The notes beneath the pieces are model-generated. The model saw only the letters and a list, made by a program, of their open reading frames with translations, searched no databases and was not told the DNA's origin. Below, in pieces: positions 1,951 to 12,002 of a DNA stretch of 64,000 nt. A program made the position numbers and the translations under genes. This DNA comes from a bacterium (GTDB lineage Bacteria; Acidobacteriota; Thermoanaerobaculia; Multivoradales; JAHEKO01), in the NCBI GenBank assembly GCA_024224155.1, contig JAAENP010000311.1, forward strand, positions 1-64,000, given 5' to 3'. Within the stretch, counting starts at the first letter, position 1; every line of letters starts with the position of its first letter.

Positions 1951-2934
1951 ATGAGGATCCTCGTATACGGCGCAGGCTGCCTCGGCAGCCTCTACGCTGC
2001 ACTGCTCACCGAGTCCCGGCAGGAAGTCACTATTCTGGCGCGGGGCGAGCGGCTTGCTCGCATCCAAAGCCATGGCATCGAACTGACGGAAGGCAAGTCG
2101 GGCCACGCGCTAGACGTTCGCGTGCCTGCGATCGAGGTTCTAGACCCGGCCGACGTCTTTGACCTCGTGCTGGTCGTCCTGCCGCGGCACCGGGTCGGCG
2201 AGGTGCTGCCCGCCCTGGGGCGCAGCGATTGCCGGAACGTCCTGTTCCTTGGGAACAACGCATCCGGCCCGGGGGAGCTCGTCGACGCGCTCGGCCCCGA
2301 GCGAGTTCTTCTCGGATTTCCGGGTGCCGCAGCCGTTCATGCGCGTGACCGCATCCGCTACCTCATCCTGTCGCGACGGGAACAACCCACCACCCTTGGA
2401 GAGCTCAACGGGGGACGAACGCCGCGGCTGCGAGCCATTGCCGACACCCTCAGCAGCGCCGGATTCCCGACTGCGACCAGCGCCAACGTGGACGCCTGGC
2501 TCAAAACCCACGCGGCCGAGGTCTCGCCCACGGCCAACGCCTTCTACCTGGCCGCCGGCGACCACCGCCGTCTCGCCCGCACCCCTGACGGAGTCCTGCT
2601 GATGCTCCGAGCCATTCGCGAGCTCTACGCTTGCCTGAACCGCCTTGAAGTGCCGATCACGCCAGCCGCTCACCGGGTCTTCCAGTGGCTGCCCGAGTCC
2701 GTCCTGCAATCGATTATGAAGCGGATGCTCGCAAGCGAGACCACCGCGATCAAGGTCGGCCACGCCCTTGAAGCCCGAGACGAGTGGCGAGTGATCGCCA
2801 AGGAGCTCCGCGTCCTCGCGGCATCGGCTGAGCTTCCAACGCCGGCGTACGACCAGCTGTGTAGATACCTTGACGCCGAAACTCCTCCGCTTCCGGACGG
2901 ATCCGCAGTGCTGACCGCCCGACGGGCGGCCTAG
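1951..2934 (+). CDS. Ketopantoate reductase-family (ApbA/PanE-like) oxidoreductase
   Basis: 327 residues, close to the family's usual 300-330. The N-terminus has the dinucleotide-binding motif GAGCLGSLYA right after the first strand (MRILVYGAG), followed by a basic patch LARGERL expected to contact the NADPH phosphate. A conserved KTHAAEVSPTANAF segment sits where ketopantoate reductases carry the catalytic lysine helix (residues about 188-201). The C-terminal half is helical. True PanE makes pantoate for CoA; many paralogues act on other 2-keto substrates, and nothing here fixes the substrate. The ATG follows GGAGAGG by about 8 bases, and a TACACT box at 1925-1930 could be the -10. Downstream is a hairpin repeat. 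Confidence 0.75.
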   Translation: MRILVYGAGCLGSLYAALLTESRQEVTILARGERLARIQSHGIELTEGKSGHALDVRVPAIEVLDPADVFDLVLVVLPRHRVGEVLPALGRSDCRNVLFLGNNASGPGELVDALGPERVLLGFPGAAAVHARDRIRYLILSRREQPTTLGELNGGRTPRLRAIADTLSSAGFPTATSANVDAWLKTHAAEVSPTANAFYLAAGDHRRLARTPDGVLLMLRAIRELYACLNRLEVPITPAAHRVFQWLPESVLQSIMKRMLASETTAIKVGHALEARDEWRVIAKELRVLAASAELPTPAYDQLCRYLDAETPPLPDGSAVLTARRAA

Positions 2935-3109: not shown

Positions 3110-3137
3110 AGAAATGGGTGGCACCTCTATTGGGGGG
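3110..3137 (+). repeat. Repeat family C, copy 5
   Basis: AAATGGGTGGCACCTCTATT followed by GGGGGG. It ends two bases before the stop codon of the last gene of the four-gene cluster, so it marks one edge of that cluster. Confidence 0.45.
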
Positions 3138-3139
3138 CC

Positions 3140-3703
3140 TTAGGATCCCTCAGCAATAGCCAAATCGTGCTCCAAGTAGTTGATCCCCGGAATCGTCACT
3201 TCAATACCATCGGTGGAAGCAGTGTCGAGCCAGCCCTTTCTGGCTGCAGTGTCAATCAGGCTCTGCCGCAATGCGGAAGGTACCTTGAGGCCCGGGATGT
3301 CGCGATAGCAGGTGAAGATATGGTCGACCGAGATCGCCTCAATCTTCGCCAGCTGCTGTAGCCAGTACGCGAATATGAGATTCCGCTCAAAGTTCGTCGT
3401 AGGAGCGTATTTGCTGTAGAAGTCCCGGAGTCTGGGTCTGGAGCCTGAAGCTGACAGGTCCAGGTCTTGTACCAGAGCGGGCTTGCCACTGCCCTTCCGC
3501 GCGCTCCTCTTCGTTGACCTTTGTGCGTCGGCGCCCTTGGATACCGTTCGACGCTGGTCGGCAGGAGCGCTCTTTCGCCTTGTCGATGTGACATCCGTCA
3601 GCAGCTCCTTGTAGTCAGCGTAGATCATGCGTACAAACTCCTCGGTACCCTCCACCTCAACCGCCCTCTCCGCAAGATCGATCCTCAACCGTGTGTCAGC
3701 CAT
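3140..3703 (-). CDS. Unrecognised winged-helix-like protein, fourth gene of the four-gene cluster
   Basis: 187 residues. The N-terminus (about 5-33) reads as a strand-helix unit with VEVEGTEEFVRMIYADYKEL. A basic, low-complexity linker with many Lys/Arg/Ser follows (about 40-80). The C-terminal domain (about 93-182) begins DFYSKYAPTTNFERN and contains HIFTCYRDI, ALRQSLIDTAARKGWLD, then GIEVTIPGINYLEHDL. This last layout (recognition-helix-like segment, GWLD turn, beta-wing ending in G-x-x-x-x-x-H) looks like a winged helix, but I cannot name a characterised family. The ATG at 3703 has AAGGAGA about six bases upstream. It is the last gene of a codirectional run with 5127-5693, 4538-5044 and 3772-4518. 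Whether it binds nucleic acid or a partner protein is unknown. Confidence 0.7.
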   Translation of the reverse strand: MADTRLRIDLAERAVEVEGTEEFVRMIYADYKELLTDVTSTRRKSAPADQRRTVSKGADAQRSTKRSARKGSGKPALVQDLDLSASGSRPRLRDFYSKYAPTTNFERNLIFAYWLQQLAKIEAISVDHIFTCYRDIPGLKVPSALRQSLIDTAARKGWLDTASTDGIEVTIPGINYLEHDLAIAEGS

Positions 3704-3771
3704 TTCATTCTCCTTTCCATTTCCCCAAAACAGGCTCTAAGCTTACGTGCTCGGCTCGTCTCACTGGGCGT

Positions 3772-4518
3772 TCAGACCATGCCTGCCAGGTGCAGAAGCT
3801 CCTCCGAAGCGAGTCGAACTCCATCGCGAACCCTGTCGATGTCGTTCTTTCGTGCATTGAATCGGCGGTTGTGAGCAGATTGATCTCCCAGCCTCTTGCA
3901 GTCCCTCAGACCTTTGGAGGTATTTCGGCCTGGCGAGATCGTCTTGTCTCTCTCGAGAATCGCTAGGAGCGCTGAGAACATCAGATAGTTGCCGTCGCTT
4001 CCCCTTAGCTCTGCTTGCCTCCCAAGATGCTCGTAGAGTTCTATTACGAGCGTTTCCAGCAGTCTGCGACACATGACGGCGCAACAATCGTAGAGGCCTC
4101 CGTCGTAACTTCCGTTGATCTGAGCCACGACCCGCTCCAGGTAACCGCGCGTCCCATCGAACAGCTCACGCGGAAGCACTGAGTCGCTTGGTTTGAGTGG
4201 CCTTACCTGCAGATACGTACCGAACTTCTGCTCGATCTCCTGTAGTGAGTTTGTCCGAATTCGAAAGGCGCCTCTCTTGGCCTTTGCCGTGAGTGGACTT
4301 CTGGTGAGGTTTTCCTTCAACCGCGTGAGGTTCTGACGTGCGTACCCTGCGTCCTCCATCGCCTCTCCGATCTCAGCTGCGGTCATCGAACTCCTACCGC
4401 CGACCAACTGGCCCCACCACAACAGCCCGACTGCTCGATCGGTCTGGGTCAACCTCGCTTGGCGAGCGAGCACTTCAAGAAACTCCGTCGAGGTTGGATT
4501 GCTCAACGGGCCTCCCAC
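3772..4518 (-). CDS. Winged-helix plus HEPN/DUF4145-like protein, third gene of the cluster
   Basis: 248 residues from the GTG at 4518. A TTG at 4504-4506 is better placed behind a GGGAGG site (four bases away) and would drop four residues. Residues about 25-100 look like a winged-helix domain (TAAEIGEAMEDAGYARQNLT, then KRGAFRIR). Residues about 120-245 form a helical domain with YDGGLYDCCAVMCRRLLETL and, at R209-H216, the motif RLGDQSAH. R-x6-H matches the R-x4-6-H signature of HEPN nucleases and the related DUF4145 domain. Many HEPN proteins are RNases in toxin-antitoxin or antiphage systems, while DUF4145 is often fused to defence enzymes. Activity here is inference. The gap to the preceding gene is about 20 bases. 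Confidence 0.7.
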   Translation of the reverse strand: MGGPLSNPTSTEFLEVLARQARLTQTDRAVGLLWWGQLVGGRSSMTAAEIGEAMEDAGYARQNLTRLKENLTRSPLTAKAKRGAFRIRTNSLQEIEQKFGTYLQVRPLKPSDSVLPRELFDGTRGYLERVVAQINGSYDGGLYDCCAVMCRRLLETLVIELYEHLGRQAELRGSDGNYLMFSALLAILERDKTISPGRNTSKGLRDCKRLGDQSAHNRRFNARKNDIDRVRDGVRLASEELLHLAGMV

Positions 4519-4537
4519 GTGTCAGATAGCCGCCTGA

Positions 4538-5044
4538 TCATTCCTTGTTGTCCTTACTTTGGCGCGGCTTCTTCCCCTTCAGTACCTTGTAGGTCTCCTT
4601 GATGAAGGCTTCGCCATTGACAGTCAGTCGGTAGCCTTTGCCTTGCCTTCTGAACAAACTCTTTCCCCCCTTTCGAGCTTGGCGCATCGTCATGTCGGGG
4701 CGCTCAGGTATCGTGAGACCGGTGTCCTCAGCAATGCAGCGGAGGTCCTCCACTTGGATGGGGAAAACTCCATGCTGGAGGTAGAGCCAGGCCACAATGC
4801 GGAACAAACAACGACTCGGCCTCTCGGAAGAGTCAACGCTACTGAAGAACGACTCGTAGTCCGACTTCGACGGCTCCGCGCTCGATCCTCCGTCTCTCTC
4901 TTCCGCCCCGCCCGAACCTCCACCGACCTTTTCCTTCCCGAGCAGTTCATCCAGCGCTCGATTGAATGCGGCCTCTTGGAGGTTTTCGGGTACCTTCTTT
5001 GCCATCGCAGCCGCTACTTCCAGTGCCTTCTCAAGATCCTTCAT
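4538..5044 (-). CDS. Unrecognised winged-helix-like protein, second gene of the cluster
   Basis: 168 residues from the ATG at 5042-5044. An upstream in-frame TTG at 5059 would place the GGAGGAG ribosome-binding site inside the gene, so the ATG (five bases after that site) is preferred. The N-terminus is helical (KDLEKALEVAAAMAKKVPEN). A Gly/Glu/Ser-rich linker covers about 40-70. The C-terminal part has FRIVAWLYLQHG, then TIPERPDMTMRQARKGGKSL and GKGYRLTVNGEAFI, a typical helix-turn-helix plus wing layout. No characterised family is recognised. It is codirectional with its neighbours, with short gaps, so cotranscription is likely. Confidence 0.7.
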   Translation of the reverse strand: MKDLEKALEVAAAMAKKVPENLQEAAFNRALDELLGKEKVGGGSGGAEERDGGSSAEPSKSDYESFFSSVDSSERPSRCLFRIVAWLYLQHGVFPIQVEDLRCIAEDTGLTIPERPDMTMRQARKGGKSLFRRQGKGYRLTVNGEAFIKETYKVLKGKKPRQSKDNKE

Positions 5045-5126
5045 TTCTCTCCTCCACAATTACTAGGCCTCAGCTCAGCGCGGCCAACTGCGGGATGCTC
5101 ACGTGCGCCCTCAAGAACCACGCCAA

Positions 5127-5693
5127 CTACAACTGGTCGCCTTCCGTGAGATCCCGAAGAAGACCAGACAACTCCTCTGTTCCAGGCCTGTTCATCTTGA
5201 TCTCTCGGCTTCTGCCGCTGCCTTTGAAGCCAAACCACTTCTCCATTCCTCGGATCGTGGCTGCGAAGTTCGCCTGGTCGTACCTTCCGAAGTGTTCACA
5301 CACCTCCCTAAGGCTGTCCACACGGGTCCACTCCTCAAGGCCTCCAAGCTGGCGACCGCCCGCAACCAGAATTGCCAGCTGCCTACTCGCTCCCGAATTG
5401 CTCTTCGCAAGCCTCCCACTTCCGACAACTACCGCGAGCTCTCCGTCGGACGCGTCGTAGACCTCCTCGACACGTGAGACCTCCATCCCGACGGCCTGAG
5501 CAATCCGACTCACCGTATCCCTAGCCACATCACCAGTTACGTCCCTCACCCCACCCCCGGTACCTCTATTCACTAGAGCCTCTCGGCTCATCAGCTCAAC
5601 AGCCATCTTAAAACCAACCGGTCGCAGCTCCGGGGGGAGGTCAGCGCGCTCCAACTCTTTTAGCGCCCGACTCAGTAATTCATATACTTCCAT
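5127..5693 (-). CDS. Unrecognised winged-helix-like protein, first gene of the cluster
   Basis: 188 residues from the ATG at 5691-5693. An alternative ATG at 5697-5699 is only two bases from the GAGGAG site (5702-5707), whereas 5693 is eight bases away, so the inner start is chosen. The N-terminus is helical (EVYELLSRALKELERADLPP). The middle has VSRIAQAVGMEVSRVEEVYD, which could be a small helix-turn-helix. The C-terminal part has ASRQLAILVAGGRQLGGLEE, then REVCEHFGRYDQANFAATI and GFKGSGRSREIKM, again resembling a winged helix. I do not recognise a named family. As first gene behind a long, lower-GC, gene-free region, it probably carries the promoter for the cluster. Confidence 0.7.
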   Translation of the reverse strand: MEVYELLSRALKELERADLPPELRPVGFKMAVELMSREALVNRGTGGGVRDVTGDVARDTVSRIAQAVGMEVSRVEEVYDASDGELAVVVGSGRLAKSNSGASRQLAILVAGGRQLGGLEEWTRVDSLREVCEHFGRYDQANFAATIRGMEKWFGFKGSGRSREIKMNRPGTEELSGLLRDLTEGDQL

Positions 5694-5842
5694 AGCCATT
5701 GCTCCTCATTGCACGGTGGCCGTCAACCAAACTCACCTCTCAAGGGTCCAACGCAGCTTGACCGTACCACCCAAGGCGAGCCTGTGTCAAGTCAACATGG
5801 AATCTTGTCTTTCGTATCCAGGAATCTCTACGCAATCTGGAC

Positions 5843-5907
5843 CACTTCACTCGGATGAAATGCGGCCGGCACGGCCACCAATGGCGTGCTCGCCTTCGAT
5901 CGAATCG
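5843..5907 (+). repeat. 65-base direct repeat, copy 1
   Basis: Begins CACTTCACTCGGATGA and ends TTCGATCGAATCG. It matches 6170-6234 at 62 of 65 positions by eye (differences A/G, C/T and T/C). No open frame spans it convincingly. Confidence 0.8.
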
Positions 5908-6169
5908 ACATATTGACTCCAAGAATAGCCAGTATTATCCACTCCAGAACAAAGCATCGCCGGCCCAGACAAAGCTCGAGCGAGCAGGCCGAGGTGTCAC
6001 GGAATTAGCCCGGCTCAGGTCGGCGTGGCGAGCACACTCTTATTCTCCCCGCATGATCTCTAACATATTATGGAATACCATATTGAACTAACCCTTAGTG
6101 CTCAGATAGATACAGCTAGGTCTATGCATGGAAATATTGCGGTTAGCAATCCCGAGAAGAAACAGGCCG

Positions 6170-6234
6170 CACTTCACTCGGATGAGATGCGGCCGGCACG
6201 GTCACCAACGGCGTGCTCGCCTTCGATCGAATCG
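6170..6234 (+). repeat. 65-base direct repeat, copy 2
   Basis: Same orientation as 5843-5907, with start points 327 bases apart. It lies about 120 bases from the 3' end of ligA. Confidence 0.8.
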
Positions 6235-6355
6235 TCTAGGCAGGCGGTGCTCCGCTCAAAGAGCGTCTGTCCACACCCGGAGCAGGCCCTCATCTCCTGA
6301 CGATTCTCAGAATGAGGCTTTGTTGGCCTGAATCGCTGCCCGATCTGGTGGCCCC

Positions 6356-8386
6356 CTACCCCACCAACCCCCTAAACCCCTCCTCATCCACCACAGTGAT
6401 TCCCAACTCCTCCGCCTTCTTCAGCTTCGACCCCGGCTTGTCCCCCACTACGACATAGCTGGTCGCTTTCGACACGCTCCCTACGACCTTCCCGCCCGCA
6501 GCCTCGACCAGCCTCTTCGCCTTGTCTCGGCTCATGGTCTCGAGTCCGCCGGTGAACACGAACTTCGCGCCTTCGAGCTTGCCGCCCTCGACGGAAGCCT
6601 CCGGCACGATCAGGTCCATCATCGCCAGCAGCTGATCGAGCACCTTGGCGTTGTGCTTTTCTTTGAAGAAGGCGACGATCTGTTCGGACATGCGCGGGCC
6701 GACGCCGTCGATGGTCTGGAGGGTCTCTTCGTCGGCGTTACGGAGGGCATCGAAGTCGCGAAAGTGGCTGGCGAGGTCACGGGCGGTGGTGAAGCCGACC
6801 TCCGGGATACCGATGCCGAAGATGAATCGGTGGAGGTCGGTCTTGGAAGCCTTGGCCATGGCGTCGACCAGGGCGGTGGCGGACTTCTCGGCGAATCCTT
6901 CGAGGTCGACGAGCTGCTCGGCGGTGAGCTCGAAGAGGTCGGGCAGGTGCTTGACGAGGCCGAGCTCGACGAACATCTTGGCGCTCTCTTCGCCGAGGCC
7001 CTCGATGTCGAGGGCATAGCGCGAGCCGAAGTGGATGATCCGGCCCTTCAACTGGGCCGGGCACTCGAAGCTGTTCGGACAGACCGAGAACGGGCCACGC
7101 TCGATGAGCTCGGTGCCGCACGATGGGCACGTCTCCGGCATCTTGAACTTGGGCTTCCGGCGCTTGCCCTTCTCCGGGATGCGCTCGACGACCTGGGGGA
7201 TGACGTCGCCGGCCCGCTGGACGCGGATCTTGTCGCCCTTCCTGATGTCCTTCCTCGCGACCTCTTCGCGGTTGTGGAGGGTCGCGCGCGAGACGGTGAC
7301 GCCGCCGATCTCGACCGGGCGCATCATGGCGACCGGGGTGACGACACCGGTTCGGCCGACGCTCGGGAAGATCTCGAGGACCCGAGTGATCTCTTTCCGG
7401 GGTGGGAACTTGAAAGCGTAGGCCCAGCGCGGATGGTGGGAGGTCGAGCCGAGCTCGTCGCGGGCGGCGATGTCGTCGAGCTTGATGACGACGCCGTCGA
7501 TCTCGTAGTTGAGCTCGTCGCGGGAGTCGATCATCTGCTGGTGGTAGGCGGCGATCTCGTCAAGAGTCGTGACTCGGCGTGGGAGATCGTTGACCCGGAG
7601 GCCGAAGTCCTGCAGAGCTTCGAGCATTTCCCATTGGGTATTGGAGCCAGGTGCGCCGATCTCAGCCAGGTCTCCCACCAGCAGGTCGTAGACGTAAATG
7701 TCGAGTGGGCGCTCAGCGACCAGGCGCGGGTCGAGTTGGCGGAGTGCGCCGGCGGCGGTGTTTCGAGGGCTCGCGAAGGGCTCCTTGCCCTCGGCGATGA
7801 GCTTCTCATTGAAGGCCTCGAAGTCGTTGATCGGCATAATGACTTCGGCGCGGACGGCGAGGAGCGGTGGGACGCTCTTTCCCTTTGGTGCACGGAGCTT
7901 CAAGGGAACGGCTTTAATCGTGCGGACGTTCTCGGTGACGTCCTCCCCCACTTGGCCGTCGCCGCGGGTAACACCGCGGACAAAGCGGCCGTTCTCGTAG
8001 ACGAGCTCCATCGAGGCGCCGTCGAGCTTGGGCTCGCAGACGTAGGCGATCTCGGTATCGGAGCCAGGCTCACCCAGAGCCTTTTCGATCCGACCCATGA
8101 AGCGCTCGACCTCGGAGAGCTCGGGGCTCGAGTCGAGGGAGCGCATGGGGGCGGTGTGCTCGACGGTCTCGAGGCCGTCGAGGGGGGCGCCGCCGACGCG
8201 CTGTGTGGGCGATTCCGGGGTGACGAGGTCGGGGTGCTCTTCTTCGAGGCGTTTTAGGTCACGGAAGAGCTTGTCGTAGGCCTCGTCGGAGACCTCGGGG
8301 CGGTCGCGGACGTGGTAGAGGTAGTTGTGGTGGTCGATCTCGGAGCGGAGCTCGGAGATGCGCGCCGATGCTTGCCTTCGGTTCAT
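6356..8386 (-). CDS. ligA: NAD-dependent DNA ligase LigA
   Basis: Seals 5'-phosphate/3'-hydroxyl nicks in DNA using NAD+, in replication and repair in the cytoplasm. 676 residues, the usual length. Domains in order: Ia domain with YHVRDRPEVSDEAYDKL for NMN binding; adenylation domain with catalytic Lys120 in EPKLDGASMEL and the RGDGQVGEDVTEN motif; OB fold; four-cysteine zinc finger (CPSCG and CPNSFEC); helix-hairpin-helix repeats (GIPEVGFTTARDLA, IDGVGPRMSEQI); C-terminal BRCT domain (FVFTGGLETMSR onward). All key residues are intact. A TACGAT box at 8395-8400 is eight bases ahead of the ATG and there is no Shine-Dalgarno site, suggesting a leaderless message. A family B repeat lies just upstream. 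Confidence 0.97.
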   Translation of the reverse strand: MNRRQASARISELRSEIDHHNYLYHVRDRPEVSDEAYDKLFRDLKRLEEEHPDLVTPESPTQRVGGAPLDGLETVEHTAPMRSLDSSPELSEVERFMGRIEKALGEPGSDTEIAYVCEPKLDGASMELVYENGRFVRGVTRGDGQVGEDVTENVRTIKAVPLKLRAPKGKSVPPLLAVRAEVIMPINDFEAFNEKLIAEGKEPFASPRNTAAGALRQLDPRLVAERPLDIYVYDLLVGDLAEIGAPGSNTQWEMLEALQDFGLRVNDLPRRVTTLDEIAAYHQQMIDSRDELNYEIDGVVIKLDDIAARDELGSTSHHPRWAYAFKFPPRKEITRVLEIFPSVGRTGVVTPVAMMRPVEIGGVTVSRATLHNREEVARKDIRKGDKIRVQRAGDVIPQVVERIPEKGKRRKPKFKMPETCPSCGTELIERGPFSVCPNSFECPAQLKGRIIHFGSRYALDIEGLGEESAKMFVELGLVKHLPDLFELTAEQLVDLEGFAEKSATALVDAMAKASKTDLHRFIFGIGIPEVGFTTARDLASHFRDFDALRNADEETLQTIDGVGPRMSEQIVAFFKEKHNAKVLDQLLAMMDLIVPEASVEGGKLEGAKFVFTGGLETMSRDKAKRLVEAAGGKVVGSVSKATSYVVVGDKPGSKLKKAEELGITVVDEEGFRGLVG

Positions 8387-8792
8387 CGGTGTCTATCGTA
8401 AAGCGAAGCACAGTGAGGTCCAAGCACGGATAGTGTCGCGCGGGTGACACCCCTTCGGGAGCGAAGAGAGGCTCCTTTCGGGGTGCACCACGCGCTCCTT
8501 CCGGCACAGCGAGGAAGAACAAGACCGCGGTGGCTGTGCAGACAGCGTCGCAGGGGTGTCGCCCCTTCGGGAGCCATCGGGAGATGGAGAGGCTCCCTAC
8601 CGTGTGGGACTCTTCGCTCGGCTCAGAGTGACGGCCGGCGGCATAGGGCGAGCCCCGCTCCGAGATCGAGCGGAAGGGACACGAAGAGGAGGGCCGGCAA
8701 TGCCGGCCGCTACAACCCCCAGTCGACAGGGACGTCGACCGCTACAAGCGCCGGGGACAGAGACCCGACGCAACTGCCAACGCGGTCGGCCG
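8387..8792. repeat. Mosaic repeat block upstream of ligA
   Basis: No gene. 8428-8505 is a family B element (GATAGTGTCGCGCGGGTGAC, then CTTCGGGAGCGAAGAGAGG). 8548-8605 is a degenerate second copy (GGTGTCGCCCCTTCGGGAGC). 8606-8636 carries TCTTCGCTCGGCTCAGAGTG, a unit also seen at 10926-10957 and 11730-11755. 8690-8790 holds short GGCCGCTACAA-type units, including the hairpin GGCCGGCAATGCCGGCC. Confidence 0.6.
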
Positions 8793-9923
8793 CTACAACC
8801 CTCCCTCGAGGCGCGCGATGCGCTTGTCCTGCTCGATCGCATGAAGTGTCAGCTCTTCGATCTTCTCGAGCAAATGTGTGATGAAGAGGTTGAGATTGAG
8901 GCCTTCGGACTCGACGGTCTCCGCGCTCGGCACGTTCGGCAGCCGCTTCTCGGTTTGGATGAACCGCTCGAGCTCGTCGAGGGGCATGAGCTCGTAGCCG
9001 GGCTCGAAGACGTAGTCCGGATGGATCGGGACGCCCTTGAGATAGACGTGCCCCTCCCCGGTGATGCCAAAGACGGCTTCGCCACGCACCCGCGGCCGGG
9101 TCCCGGGCCCTGGCCTTAGGCTGGTGGCTTTCGTGATCACGAAATCGTCCAGGGCGTCGGCCGTGGTCAGGCCGCCTTCGATGGCGCCGATCCCGGCCAG
9201 CCACTTGACGCCATTGGCCTCGTTCTCGAAGACGATCGAGGTCGGCCTTCCCTCCTGGCGCAGGTGCAGCGATGCCGCCGGTGCGTCGGTTCCGAGGCCG
9301 ACGCGGCCGTCGCTGCCGACGAAAAGCGCGTCGGCAGGCGCGTCCGGCTCGATCCGAAAGACCAGCTTGGCGTCGTGAGTAGCGTCGCGCACGTAGAAGT
9401 GGTCCTCGTTCGCGCCGACGTCCCAGCTCTGAGGGTCCCATCCCATCGAGCCGTCCTGCTCGAGGCGCAGGGTCGGGGTGTTGCCGGTGATCACGTGAAG
9501 CTCGGTCGCAGGCGTCGAAGTGCCGAAGCCGATGCGGCCCGCCTGGTCGATGAAGAGGGCGTGGCCGGGAGCCCCACCCTCGATCGTGAACGGCGTCTCG
9601 CCCGAGGTGATGTCATCGATCGAGAACTTGTCGGCGCCACCGTTCTCGCGCTCGTTGATCGTGATCTGCCAGTCGTTGGAGGGGTAGGCGGAGGTCGTCG
9701 AAGTATCCTCGAACTTGATCCTCAGGGTGTCCTCCTTCAAGAGAATGGTGTCGTAGCCGAAGGCGGGATGGTCTTCGCAGCCCCAGCCGACACACAGGCT
9801 TTGTTGGCAGACGACGTTCTCGTCGAAGATCTCGTTGGCGGTAGCCGGCGGCGCCACCGCGAAGAGCACAGTCGCCAGCGCGACGGGAAGGACAAGGAGT
9901 GTCTTACTGATCTCTTCCCTCAT
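8793..9923 (-). CDS. Exported surface protein with tail-fibre/S74-like C-terminal region
   Basis: 376 residues from the ATG at 9921-9923, which has AAGGAGGTCAGAA in front; longer upstream frames lack a site. Signal peptide: MREEISKTLL, a hydrophobic core, then APPATA. The body repeats the pattern LFIDQAGRIGFGTSTPATEL and ALFVGSDGRVGLGTDAPAAS, as in bacterial and phage fibre proteins (beta-helical units labelled G-x-G-T-x-x-P). The C-terminal part, PDYVFEPGYELMPLDELERF, then RLPNVPSAE and a coiled-coil helix EKIEELTLHAIEQDKRI, resembles the tail-fibre domain seen near peptidase-S74-type chaperones in Bacteroidota surface proteins. Its ATGA overlaps the stop of the preceding gene (9920-10429), so the two are translationally coupled. 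Cell-surface or extracellular function is inferred. Confidence 0.7.
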   Translation of the reverse strand: MREEISKTLLVLPVALATVLFAVAPPATANEIFDENVVCQQSLCVGWGCEDHPAFGYDTILLKEDTLRIKFEDTSTTSAYPSNDWQITINERENGGADKFSIDDITSGETPFTIEGGAPGHALFIDQAGRIGFGTSTPATELHVITGNTPTLRLEQDGSMGWDPQSWDVGANEDHFYVRDATHDAKLVFRIEPDAPADALFVGSDGRVGLGTDAPAASLHLRQEGRPTSIVFENEANGVKWLAGIGAIEGGLTTADALDDFVITKATSLRPGPGTRPRVRGEAVFGITGEGHVYLKGVPIHPDYVFEPGYELMPLDELERFIQTEKRLPNVPSAETVESEGLNLNLFITHLLEKIEELTLHAIEQDKRIARLEGGL

Positions 9924-10429: not shown

Positions 10430-10952
10430 GATGGACCTCCTTTCGCCCCAGTTTCGGAGCGCCCCCATCCGGTCACAACACCCCATCGGGTAGGTATCAG
10501 GGTCAGCGTCGGGGTATCGATGATCGGAGGATGAGGACAGCGGGCGGATCTGCTGCGAGCGCTGGGCGAGAGCGAGTAGGCGGCGATAGTGTCGCGCGGG
10601 TGCGACCCCTTCGGGAGCAAAGAGAGGCTCCCTCAGGGGACCACCGCGCGCTCCTTCAGGCACAGAGCCGACCTCGATGTGCTCCACGGCAAGCGGGCGC
10701 CCGCGTGCCGTCTTTACCTTCTGCTCAGGACGAACTGTTGGTCCTGCGCCGTTGAGGGCCGGCCGCGTGCGCCTCGGAGCGAGCCTCTCCATCTGCTGAT
10801 GGCTCGTGGAGAGGCGGCACCGGCGGCCCACTATCGGTAGTGTGGATCGAGCTGGCCTCGGCGACGCCAAAACGGCCGACGTCCTTCGCTTCCCTCGGAG
10901 GCGGGCGGTGGTCGATCGCAACTAGGGATTCTTCGCTCCGCTCCGCTCAGAA
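10430..10952. repeat. Repeat-rich region: family B copy and family A copy
   Basis: No gene. 10586-10660 is a family B element (GATAGTGTCGCGCGGGTGCG and TTCGGGAGCAAAGAGAGGCT). 10755-10881 is family A copy 1: GGCCGGCCGCGTGCGCCTCG, GAGCGAGCCTCTCCATC, then CGGCGGCC and GGCGACGCCAA. 10926-10957 is the TTCTTCGCTCCGCTC unit. Confidence 0.6.
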
Positions 10953-11531: not shown

Positions 11532-12002
11532 GGGATTCACTATCGTACAAGAGTGTCTGCGGCGCAGATACCGATAGTGTCGCGCGGATGACACCCCTCC
11601 GGGGGCGAAGAGAGGCCCCCTCCGGGGTGCAACACACGCTCCTTCATTAACCGAGACGACTCAGTGAGTTATCTCGGTACGGCTTTTGATGTTTCGAGTC
11701 GACTTGACCGGTGCCAAAGAGATGCTGAGCTTTCTCGCTACGCTCGGAATGACAGATAGAGCGCTGCCTCGAGGGACTCGGGGCAGCAGGAATGACAAGA
11801 CGGTCGACACGGTGGTCGACTGCTACACACTTCGGCCGACGAAAGGCCGGCCGCGTGCGCCTCGGAGCGAGCCTCTCTGCGCTCGCGGAGAGGCGGCACC
11901 GGCGGCCTCTATCGAGACGTGGATCGAACGACAATCGGCGACGCGAAAAGCCCGGGATCTCGCGGCAGCGGGATCCCGCACCTTTCAAGAGCTCCGCCCC
12001 TC
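11532..12002. repeat. Repeat-rich region upstream of the exported protein
   Basis: No gene. 11572-11646 is a family B element. 11650-11676 can fold as CCGAGA...TCTCGG. 11730-11755 carries TTTCTCGCTACGCTCGGAAT. 11842-11950 is family A copy 2, with the inner AT-CTCCTGATGGCT part of the hairpin replaced by a short GCGCTC. Confidence 0.6.

Follow-up and report, generated by a model that had tools for sequence, protein, structure and literature searches.

Four small codirectional genes, named A to D here, lie behind ligA in this bacterial genome, and the locus raises the question of whether they work together and, if so, what they do. Bacterial immunity makes very frequent use of HEPN toxins, but the switch that turns each of them on is understood in few cases. 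The product of gene C belongs to the HEPN superfamily and carries a winged helix, and we consider the block an acquired conflict locus built around this winged-helix-HEPN effector and its winged-helix partners, with a probability of roughly 0.6. Within the block, D is the clearest partner of C, and A and B are putative further partners or paralogues.

A compositionally foreign block behind ligA

The analysed stretch of 64,000 nucleotides (hereafter the window) contains the following features.

5127-5693, minus strand: gene A, 188 aa, open reading frame with an ATG start
4538-5044, minus strand: gene B, 168 aa, open reading frame with a GGAGGAG ribosome site
3772-4518, minus strand: gene C, 248 aa from a GTG start, open reading frame, putative toxin/effector
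3140-3703, minus strand: gene D, 187 aa, open reading frame with an AGGAG ribosome site, putative partner of C
1951-2934, plus strand: ketopantoate reductase gene, one flank of the block
6356-8386: ligA, the other flank of the block
5700-6355: gene-free stretch of about 650 bp between ligA and A, GC 0.55, holding the 65-bp direct repeats
5843-5907: 65-bp direct repeat, copy 1
6170-6234: 65-bp direct repeat, copy 2, 95% identical to copy 1

The four reading frames lie on the minus strand with the sizes given in the first-pass annotation, and plausible ribosome sites precede each of them, that of gene B being GGAGGAGAG. The block holds A to D and no further gene, and none of the genes near it in the window was recognised as a known defence gene. 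Its GC content of 0.57 is below the window mean of 0.647, as the annotation had noticed; of 615 windows of the same size, just 7 have so low a value, and each of them overlaps the block. The GC3 values of A to D (0.63-0.68) are also lower than those of the flanking genes (0.77-0.86). The block looks foreign in composition and horizontally acquired.

Within the genus, the sequence that follows ligA varies. In two same-genus genomes, ligA is 85-88% identical, and the sequences on its 3' side are wholly different and contain none of A to D. Since the 3' side differs completely in each genome, a clean, exact empty insertion site could not be shown, and this candidate was dropped. A genome of the genus carries other small HTH-like genes behind ligA (L052, 11547-13392), so the site may be a hotspot of turnover.

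Both edges of the block carry the repeats that had been described there. A repeat at 3111-3137 lies 3-5 bases beyond the stop codon of D; elsewhere in the window it has a single other good copy, at 1855-1881. On the ligA side, the 65-bp direct repeat was considered as a genome-wide element and rejected, since a search of the whole assembly returned two copies, both between ligA and A. The gene-free stretch has no Rfam match, and promoter, terminator and Rfam signals were sought at the locus with none found; its predicted folding is more stable than that of shuffled sequences (z -3.1). Separately, an 81-bp dispersed intergenic repeat occurs three times in the window (8429-8509, 10585-10665 and 11573-11653); in a different same-genus genome, a copy at about 83% lies upstream of ligA (L051, 1013-1085).

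Domains of the four proteins and the HEPN motif of C

The true start of gene C is probably the TTG at 4506 behind GGGAGG, giving a protein of 244 aa, since this position fits the starts of the C homologues; residue numbers are counted here from the GTG start. An AlphaFold (AF2) model of C, built from 20 sequences with a pLDDT of 92.5, starts with a winged helix (about residues 25-87), followed by a linker helix and, at the C-terminal end, by a DUF4145-type four-helix HEPN domain (about 117-244) with helices at 125-139, 143-164, 198-216 and 224-244. In Foldseek, C matches winged-helix proteins and, as its best PDB hit, the HEPN protein 2hsb (probability 1.00, TM 0.76 by target). The Foldseek E-values do not go below 0.17; we ascribe this weakness to the small domain size. 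The Pfam model of DUF4145 (PF13643) matches C itself at E 0.02 and 15.4 bits, under the cut-off of 23.1. A homologue of C at locus L031 scores above this cut-off, and a profile of the C family aligns with an unambiguous DUF4145 protein (96%, E 9e-9). Fold and sequence signature together place C in the DUF4145/HEPN superfamily, as the annotation had proposed. Relatives of C share 26-51% identity; a further match, G131, proved to be an ordinary DUF4145 protein outside the C family.

The AF2 model of D shows an N-terminal beta-beta-alpha tag (residues 4-39), a basic disordered linker and a C-terminal winged helix (about 91-180). The winged helix is predicted with a pLDDT of 85-94, and the tag, at 55-68, is of low confidence. 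Foldseek matches of D are mostly winged helices. Gene A encodes a short helical N-terminal segment, a middle segment and a C-terminal winged helix, and the last of these matches one group of D-type proteins (L027/L061/L062) in profile comparison (95%, E 3.9e-8). Two distant homologues of A were found elsewhere in the phylum. B has an N-terminal segment, a linker and a probable winged helix; its profile matches are weak, both to the D group (E 8e-4, 25%) and, for its N-terminus, to the N-terminus of the partners at L031/L041 (E 0.009). The winged helix claimed for all four proteins was recovered by structure prediction for C and D and by profile for A (E 4e-8), and faintly for B (E 8e-4).

None of the Pfam, NCBIfam and PADLOC models names A, B, C or D, in agreement with the annotation's failure to recognise a family; the scans of each protein gave weak hits alone, to DUF4145 for C and to BrxA for D. 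In PADLOC-DB 2.0.0, A, B and C have no match, and D matches BrxA at E 0.03. We rejected membership of D in BREX, since the winged helix alone is aligned and the block has no BrxC/PglX/PglZ core.

Catalytic HEPN RNases have a conserved Rx4-6H motif, and their active site includes a His that ends helix 3 and an acidic residue in helix 2 (PMC3710099). The first-pass annotation had taken RLGDQSAH (R209-H216) as such a motif. The string is present in C, but R209 is Arg in 2 of the 20 C homologues (Asp in 8, Lys in 4, others in the rest), and it was rejected on this ground as the catalytic partner of H216. The canonical Rx4-6H motif that marks catalytic HEPN domains is not conserved among the 20 homologues: the place of the Rx4H arginine is taken by a Gly (G211) in 19 of them, and position 208, at x7 spacing to H216, is Lys or Arg in 19. 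R124, Y126, R151, R152, E155, H216 (20/20) and R235 are invariant. Since H216 and its companions are kept and the arginine is not, the C family retains the active-site frame with the arginine shifted or replaced, and RNase activity of C is plausible from this pattern. Since Rx4-6H is not conserved, C might instead bind RNA without cleavage.

The latter option leads to a different view of the locus, in which a catalytically dead C and A, B and D would regulate transcription or bind RNA in some element-borne function. The winged-helix-like character of all four proteins, weak in B, and the missing canonical arginine would suit such a complex, and some HEPN domains are known to bind RNA without catalysis (PMC3710099). 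However, H216, E155 in helix 2 and R151/R152/K208 are invariant or nearly so and take up the active-site arrangement described for HEPN domains (PMC3710099), and the sister effectors at L060 and L063 retain a canonical RNx3H motif. We consider a purely regulatory or binding complex quite unlikely.

A putative HEPN effector with one small partner as the conserved unit

C homologues are sporadic. A scan of species genomes returned eight relatives, in Gammaproteobacteria, Burkholderiales, Alphaproteobacteria, Chloroflexota and Bacillota, and targeted searches added more; relatives are thus known from Pseudomonadota, Bacillota, Chloroflexota, another member of the window's own phylum and viral contigs. 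In 58 genomes related to that of the window, no homologue was found. True homologues were counted in 2 of 247 genomes of the window's phylum; elsewhere the counts were 7 of 274 Gammaproteobacteria with broken copies included, and 2/250, 1/240 and 2/249 genomes of three other samples with seeds included. No homologue of the window C was found in plasmid or phage GenBank records, and none of A, B or D in plasmid records. Three copies are broken, by a frameshift (L008), truncation (L028) or interruption (L032). The broken copies and the scattered occurrence fit an accessory gene with turnover.

Each of the 19 loci whose C homologue is intact also encodes, on the same strand, a small partner of 150-320 residues. 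The two genes are spaced by -23 to +23 bp overall and mostly by -4 to +23 bp; as in type II toxin-antitoxin systems, tightly linked small genes are kept as a pair. In the window, B precedes C by 19 bp, and D follows C at a distance of 68 bp. Both the family of the partner and the gene order vary, the partner being encoded upstream or downstream. D-type partners occur at L007, L009, L010, L012, L027 and L039, although their tie to D is weak for L010/L012 and L007. A gammaproteobacterial type is found at L002-L006, L008 and L038, DUF5343 proteins with a C-terminal tag at L029, L030, L040 and L042, and a further family at L031/L041. The DUF5343 partners end in a near-identical LHINIQLHISPESSAEQIDKIFESMAKHL-like tag, which may be an interaction element. 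Beta-beta-alpha tags are alike between partner groups at the level of pattern and not significantly so, and common ancestry of all of them was rejected.

D is homologous by profile to the partners at L009, L027, L032, L039, L060, L061, L062 and L063 (95%, E 3e-8 for the L009/L032/L039 group; 87%, E 4e-6 for the L027/L061/L062 group). Its relatives also pair with other winged-helix-HEPN proteins, at L060 and, on plasmid pLM19O1, at L063. The N-terminal part of these effectors is homologous to that of C over the winged-helix half (136 columns, 86%, E 5e-6). At L062, a D-type partner accompanies a HEPN-like protein bearing RNKRGIGH. Since D-type partners and C-like winged-helix halves are shared, both halves of the pair are related across these loci.

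The annotation had treated the four genes as one system whose families should co-occur. The C family does recur with one partner, but no close relatives of A and B were found adjoining any C homologue, and no second example of the A-D set was found elsewhere. The four-gene set was rejected as a conserved unit; judged by these comparisons, the conserved unit is a two-gene HEPN/winged-helix module and not a four-gene cluster.

These data also bear on whether the neighbourhood arose by chance, that is, whether four unrelated accessory genes came to lie behind ligA without a joint function. The variable 3' side of ligA and the uniqueness of the four-gene order, with A and B having no second example beside C, are what chance would produce. 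Against this stand the adjacent partner in 19/19 intact loci, the D and C homologues within 1.5 kb of each other also at L008 (the two D proteins are 41% identical), the D-type proteins paired with winged-helix-HEPN effectors at L060 and L063, and the fact that the block holds nothing besides A to D. Chance assembly is very improbable.

Genomic contexts and the putative function

The pairs are linked to mobile elements and restriction systems. At L039, the pair shares one operon with a type II restriction endonuclease (REase_II, 9e-78) and methyltransferase (MTase_II, 5e-133), and at L042 it lies in or beside another type II restriction operon, with an Eco57I-type methylase and an integrase. 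A type IV restriction enzyme (9e-301) adjoins the pair at L009. In a phage (L010), the pair lies in the late region, between RusA and terminase; integrases adjoin the pairs at L040 and L041, VapBC and an integrase are near the pair on pLM19O1, and the pair at L060 lies behind a Fic gene. Several other pairs (L003, L012) stand alone among chromosomal housekeeping genes with no element genes in view; these, like the poorly conserved HEPN motif of C and the lack of a further recognised defence gene near the block, weigh against a conflict role. The family combines patchy spread with an association with mobile elements and restriction systems, the pattern of a mobile conflict module, and the annotation's idea of small DNA-binding-like partners with a HEPN protein on acquired DNA finds its counterpart in these contexts. 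At L009 (1790-8882), a complete DUF3427/type IV restriction helicase stands on one side of the pair and a second, truncated copy of it on the other. A MutT/Nudix-like gene follows each of the two copies, so that the pair looks flanked by a duplication.

Since homologous pairs occur in restriction operons, in a phage, beside a type IV enzyme and next to integrases, a role in conflict or defence is the best reading, with the module being of an abortive-infection or toxin-antitoxin-like kind. Most likely, the HEPN effector would arrest growth or cause abortive infection, with the partner in control. In the mechanism that we propose, the partner would use its winged helix or tag to bind C and hold it inactive, and might also bind the DNA of its own operon. 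An invader or a blocked restriction system would then disturb the partner, or the partner would itself recognise foreign nucleic acid. The HEPN dimer would attack or bind host RNA, which would halt growth and, with it, the phage.

The same pair could instead be a plain toxin-antitoxin stability module, in which C is the toxin, the winged-helix partner is both antitoxin and autorepressor, and the benefit is maintenance of the element. The tight coupling of the two genes (mostly -4 to +23 bp), the copies in phage and integrative elements, and the D-type pair on pLM19O1 near VapBC and an integrase are consistent with such a module. Several chromosomal copies with no element genes in view (L003, L012) and the variable family and order of the partner are less easily explained by it, and the type II and type IV restriction neighbours favour defence over maintenance alone. 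We regard the stability module as unlikely and keep the conflict locus as the preferred reading.

Known systems share parts of this design. DUF4145 HEPN proteins (PF13643) have in common with C the YDxCAxMCRRxLE helix and the GDxSAH/GNxAAH ending of helix 3, and the reported linkage of DUF4145 to restriction-modification genes is also seen in the C family. However, C forms a branch of its own, in which a winged helix precedes the HEPN domain and a small partner gene is obligate. HEPN-MNT toxin-antitoxin systems are likewise two-gene modules of a HEPN toxin and a small partner, but the partner here is a winged-helix protein and not a nucleotidyltransferase, and the HEPN domain is fused to a winged helix. 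In PrrC/RloC and in PD-Lambda-5, a prophage system of compacted RM and Abi (PMC9519451), a HEPN effector is also coupled to restriction-modification. Here, in contrast, there is no ABC ATPase or fused methylase, the winged-helix partner is separate, and most copies lie away from restriction genes. The HEPN part of L042 matches PD-Lambda-5_A weakly (E about 3e-4), and that of L030 matches the abortive-infection HEPN protein AbiJ equally weakly (E about 3e-4), although AbiJ works as one gene and differs in its N-terminal domains.

The DUF5343 partners of L029, L040 and L042 match the gene A model of the PADLOC defence candidate PDC-M34 (PDC-M34A, E 5e-14 to 6e-6), whereas A, B and D of the window do not, and the C homologues tested match no PDC-M34 model. 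This match and the weak likenesses to AbiJ and PD-Lambda-5_A count in favour of a conflict locus. Csm6 proteins (CARF/HTH/HEPN RNases) also have a helical, winged-helix-like linker followed by HEPN, and 6tug is a weak fold match of C (probability about 0.8); the likeness is one of fold only, and there is neither a CARF domain nor a CRISPR gene. A literature search, which reached few subscription papers and preprints, found no description of the pairing of winged-helix-HEPN proteins with partners. It found nothing on DUF5343 or PDC-M34, and the pairing is absent from the DUF4145 papers found.

A broader proposal, which we make tentatively and which may well prove wrong, is that the pairs belong to an unnamed combinatorial immune family, in which winged-helix-HEPN effectors would work with exchangeable small adaptors (a tag plus a winged helix, or DUF5343). 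The adaptor would set the invader signal, and the stacking of A, B and D at this locus would widen recognition. Swappable winged-helix partners of related HEPN effectors, if true, would offer a tractable case of sensor/effector recombination, and the module would give a name to several families that the search libraries used do not recognise.

Two further neighbourhoods of related pairs are of interest in their own right. The HEPN pair of L002 has three neighbours (7136-9422), namely a ParA-like ATPase, a protein with a RelA/SpoT domain, and a small winged-helix-like protein whose N-terminal segment differs; they may form another conflict cluster. At L060 (3230-6383), Fic/Doc-family, D-type winged-helix and winged-helix-HEPN genes stand in one codirectional row, which is possibly a composite toxin locus.
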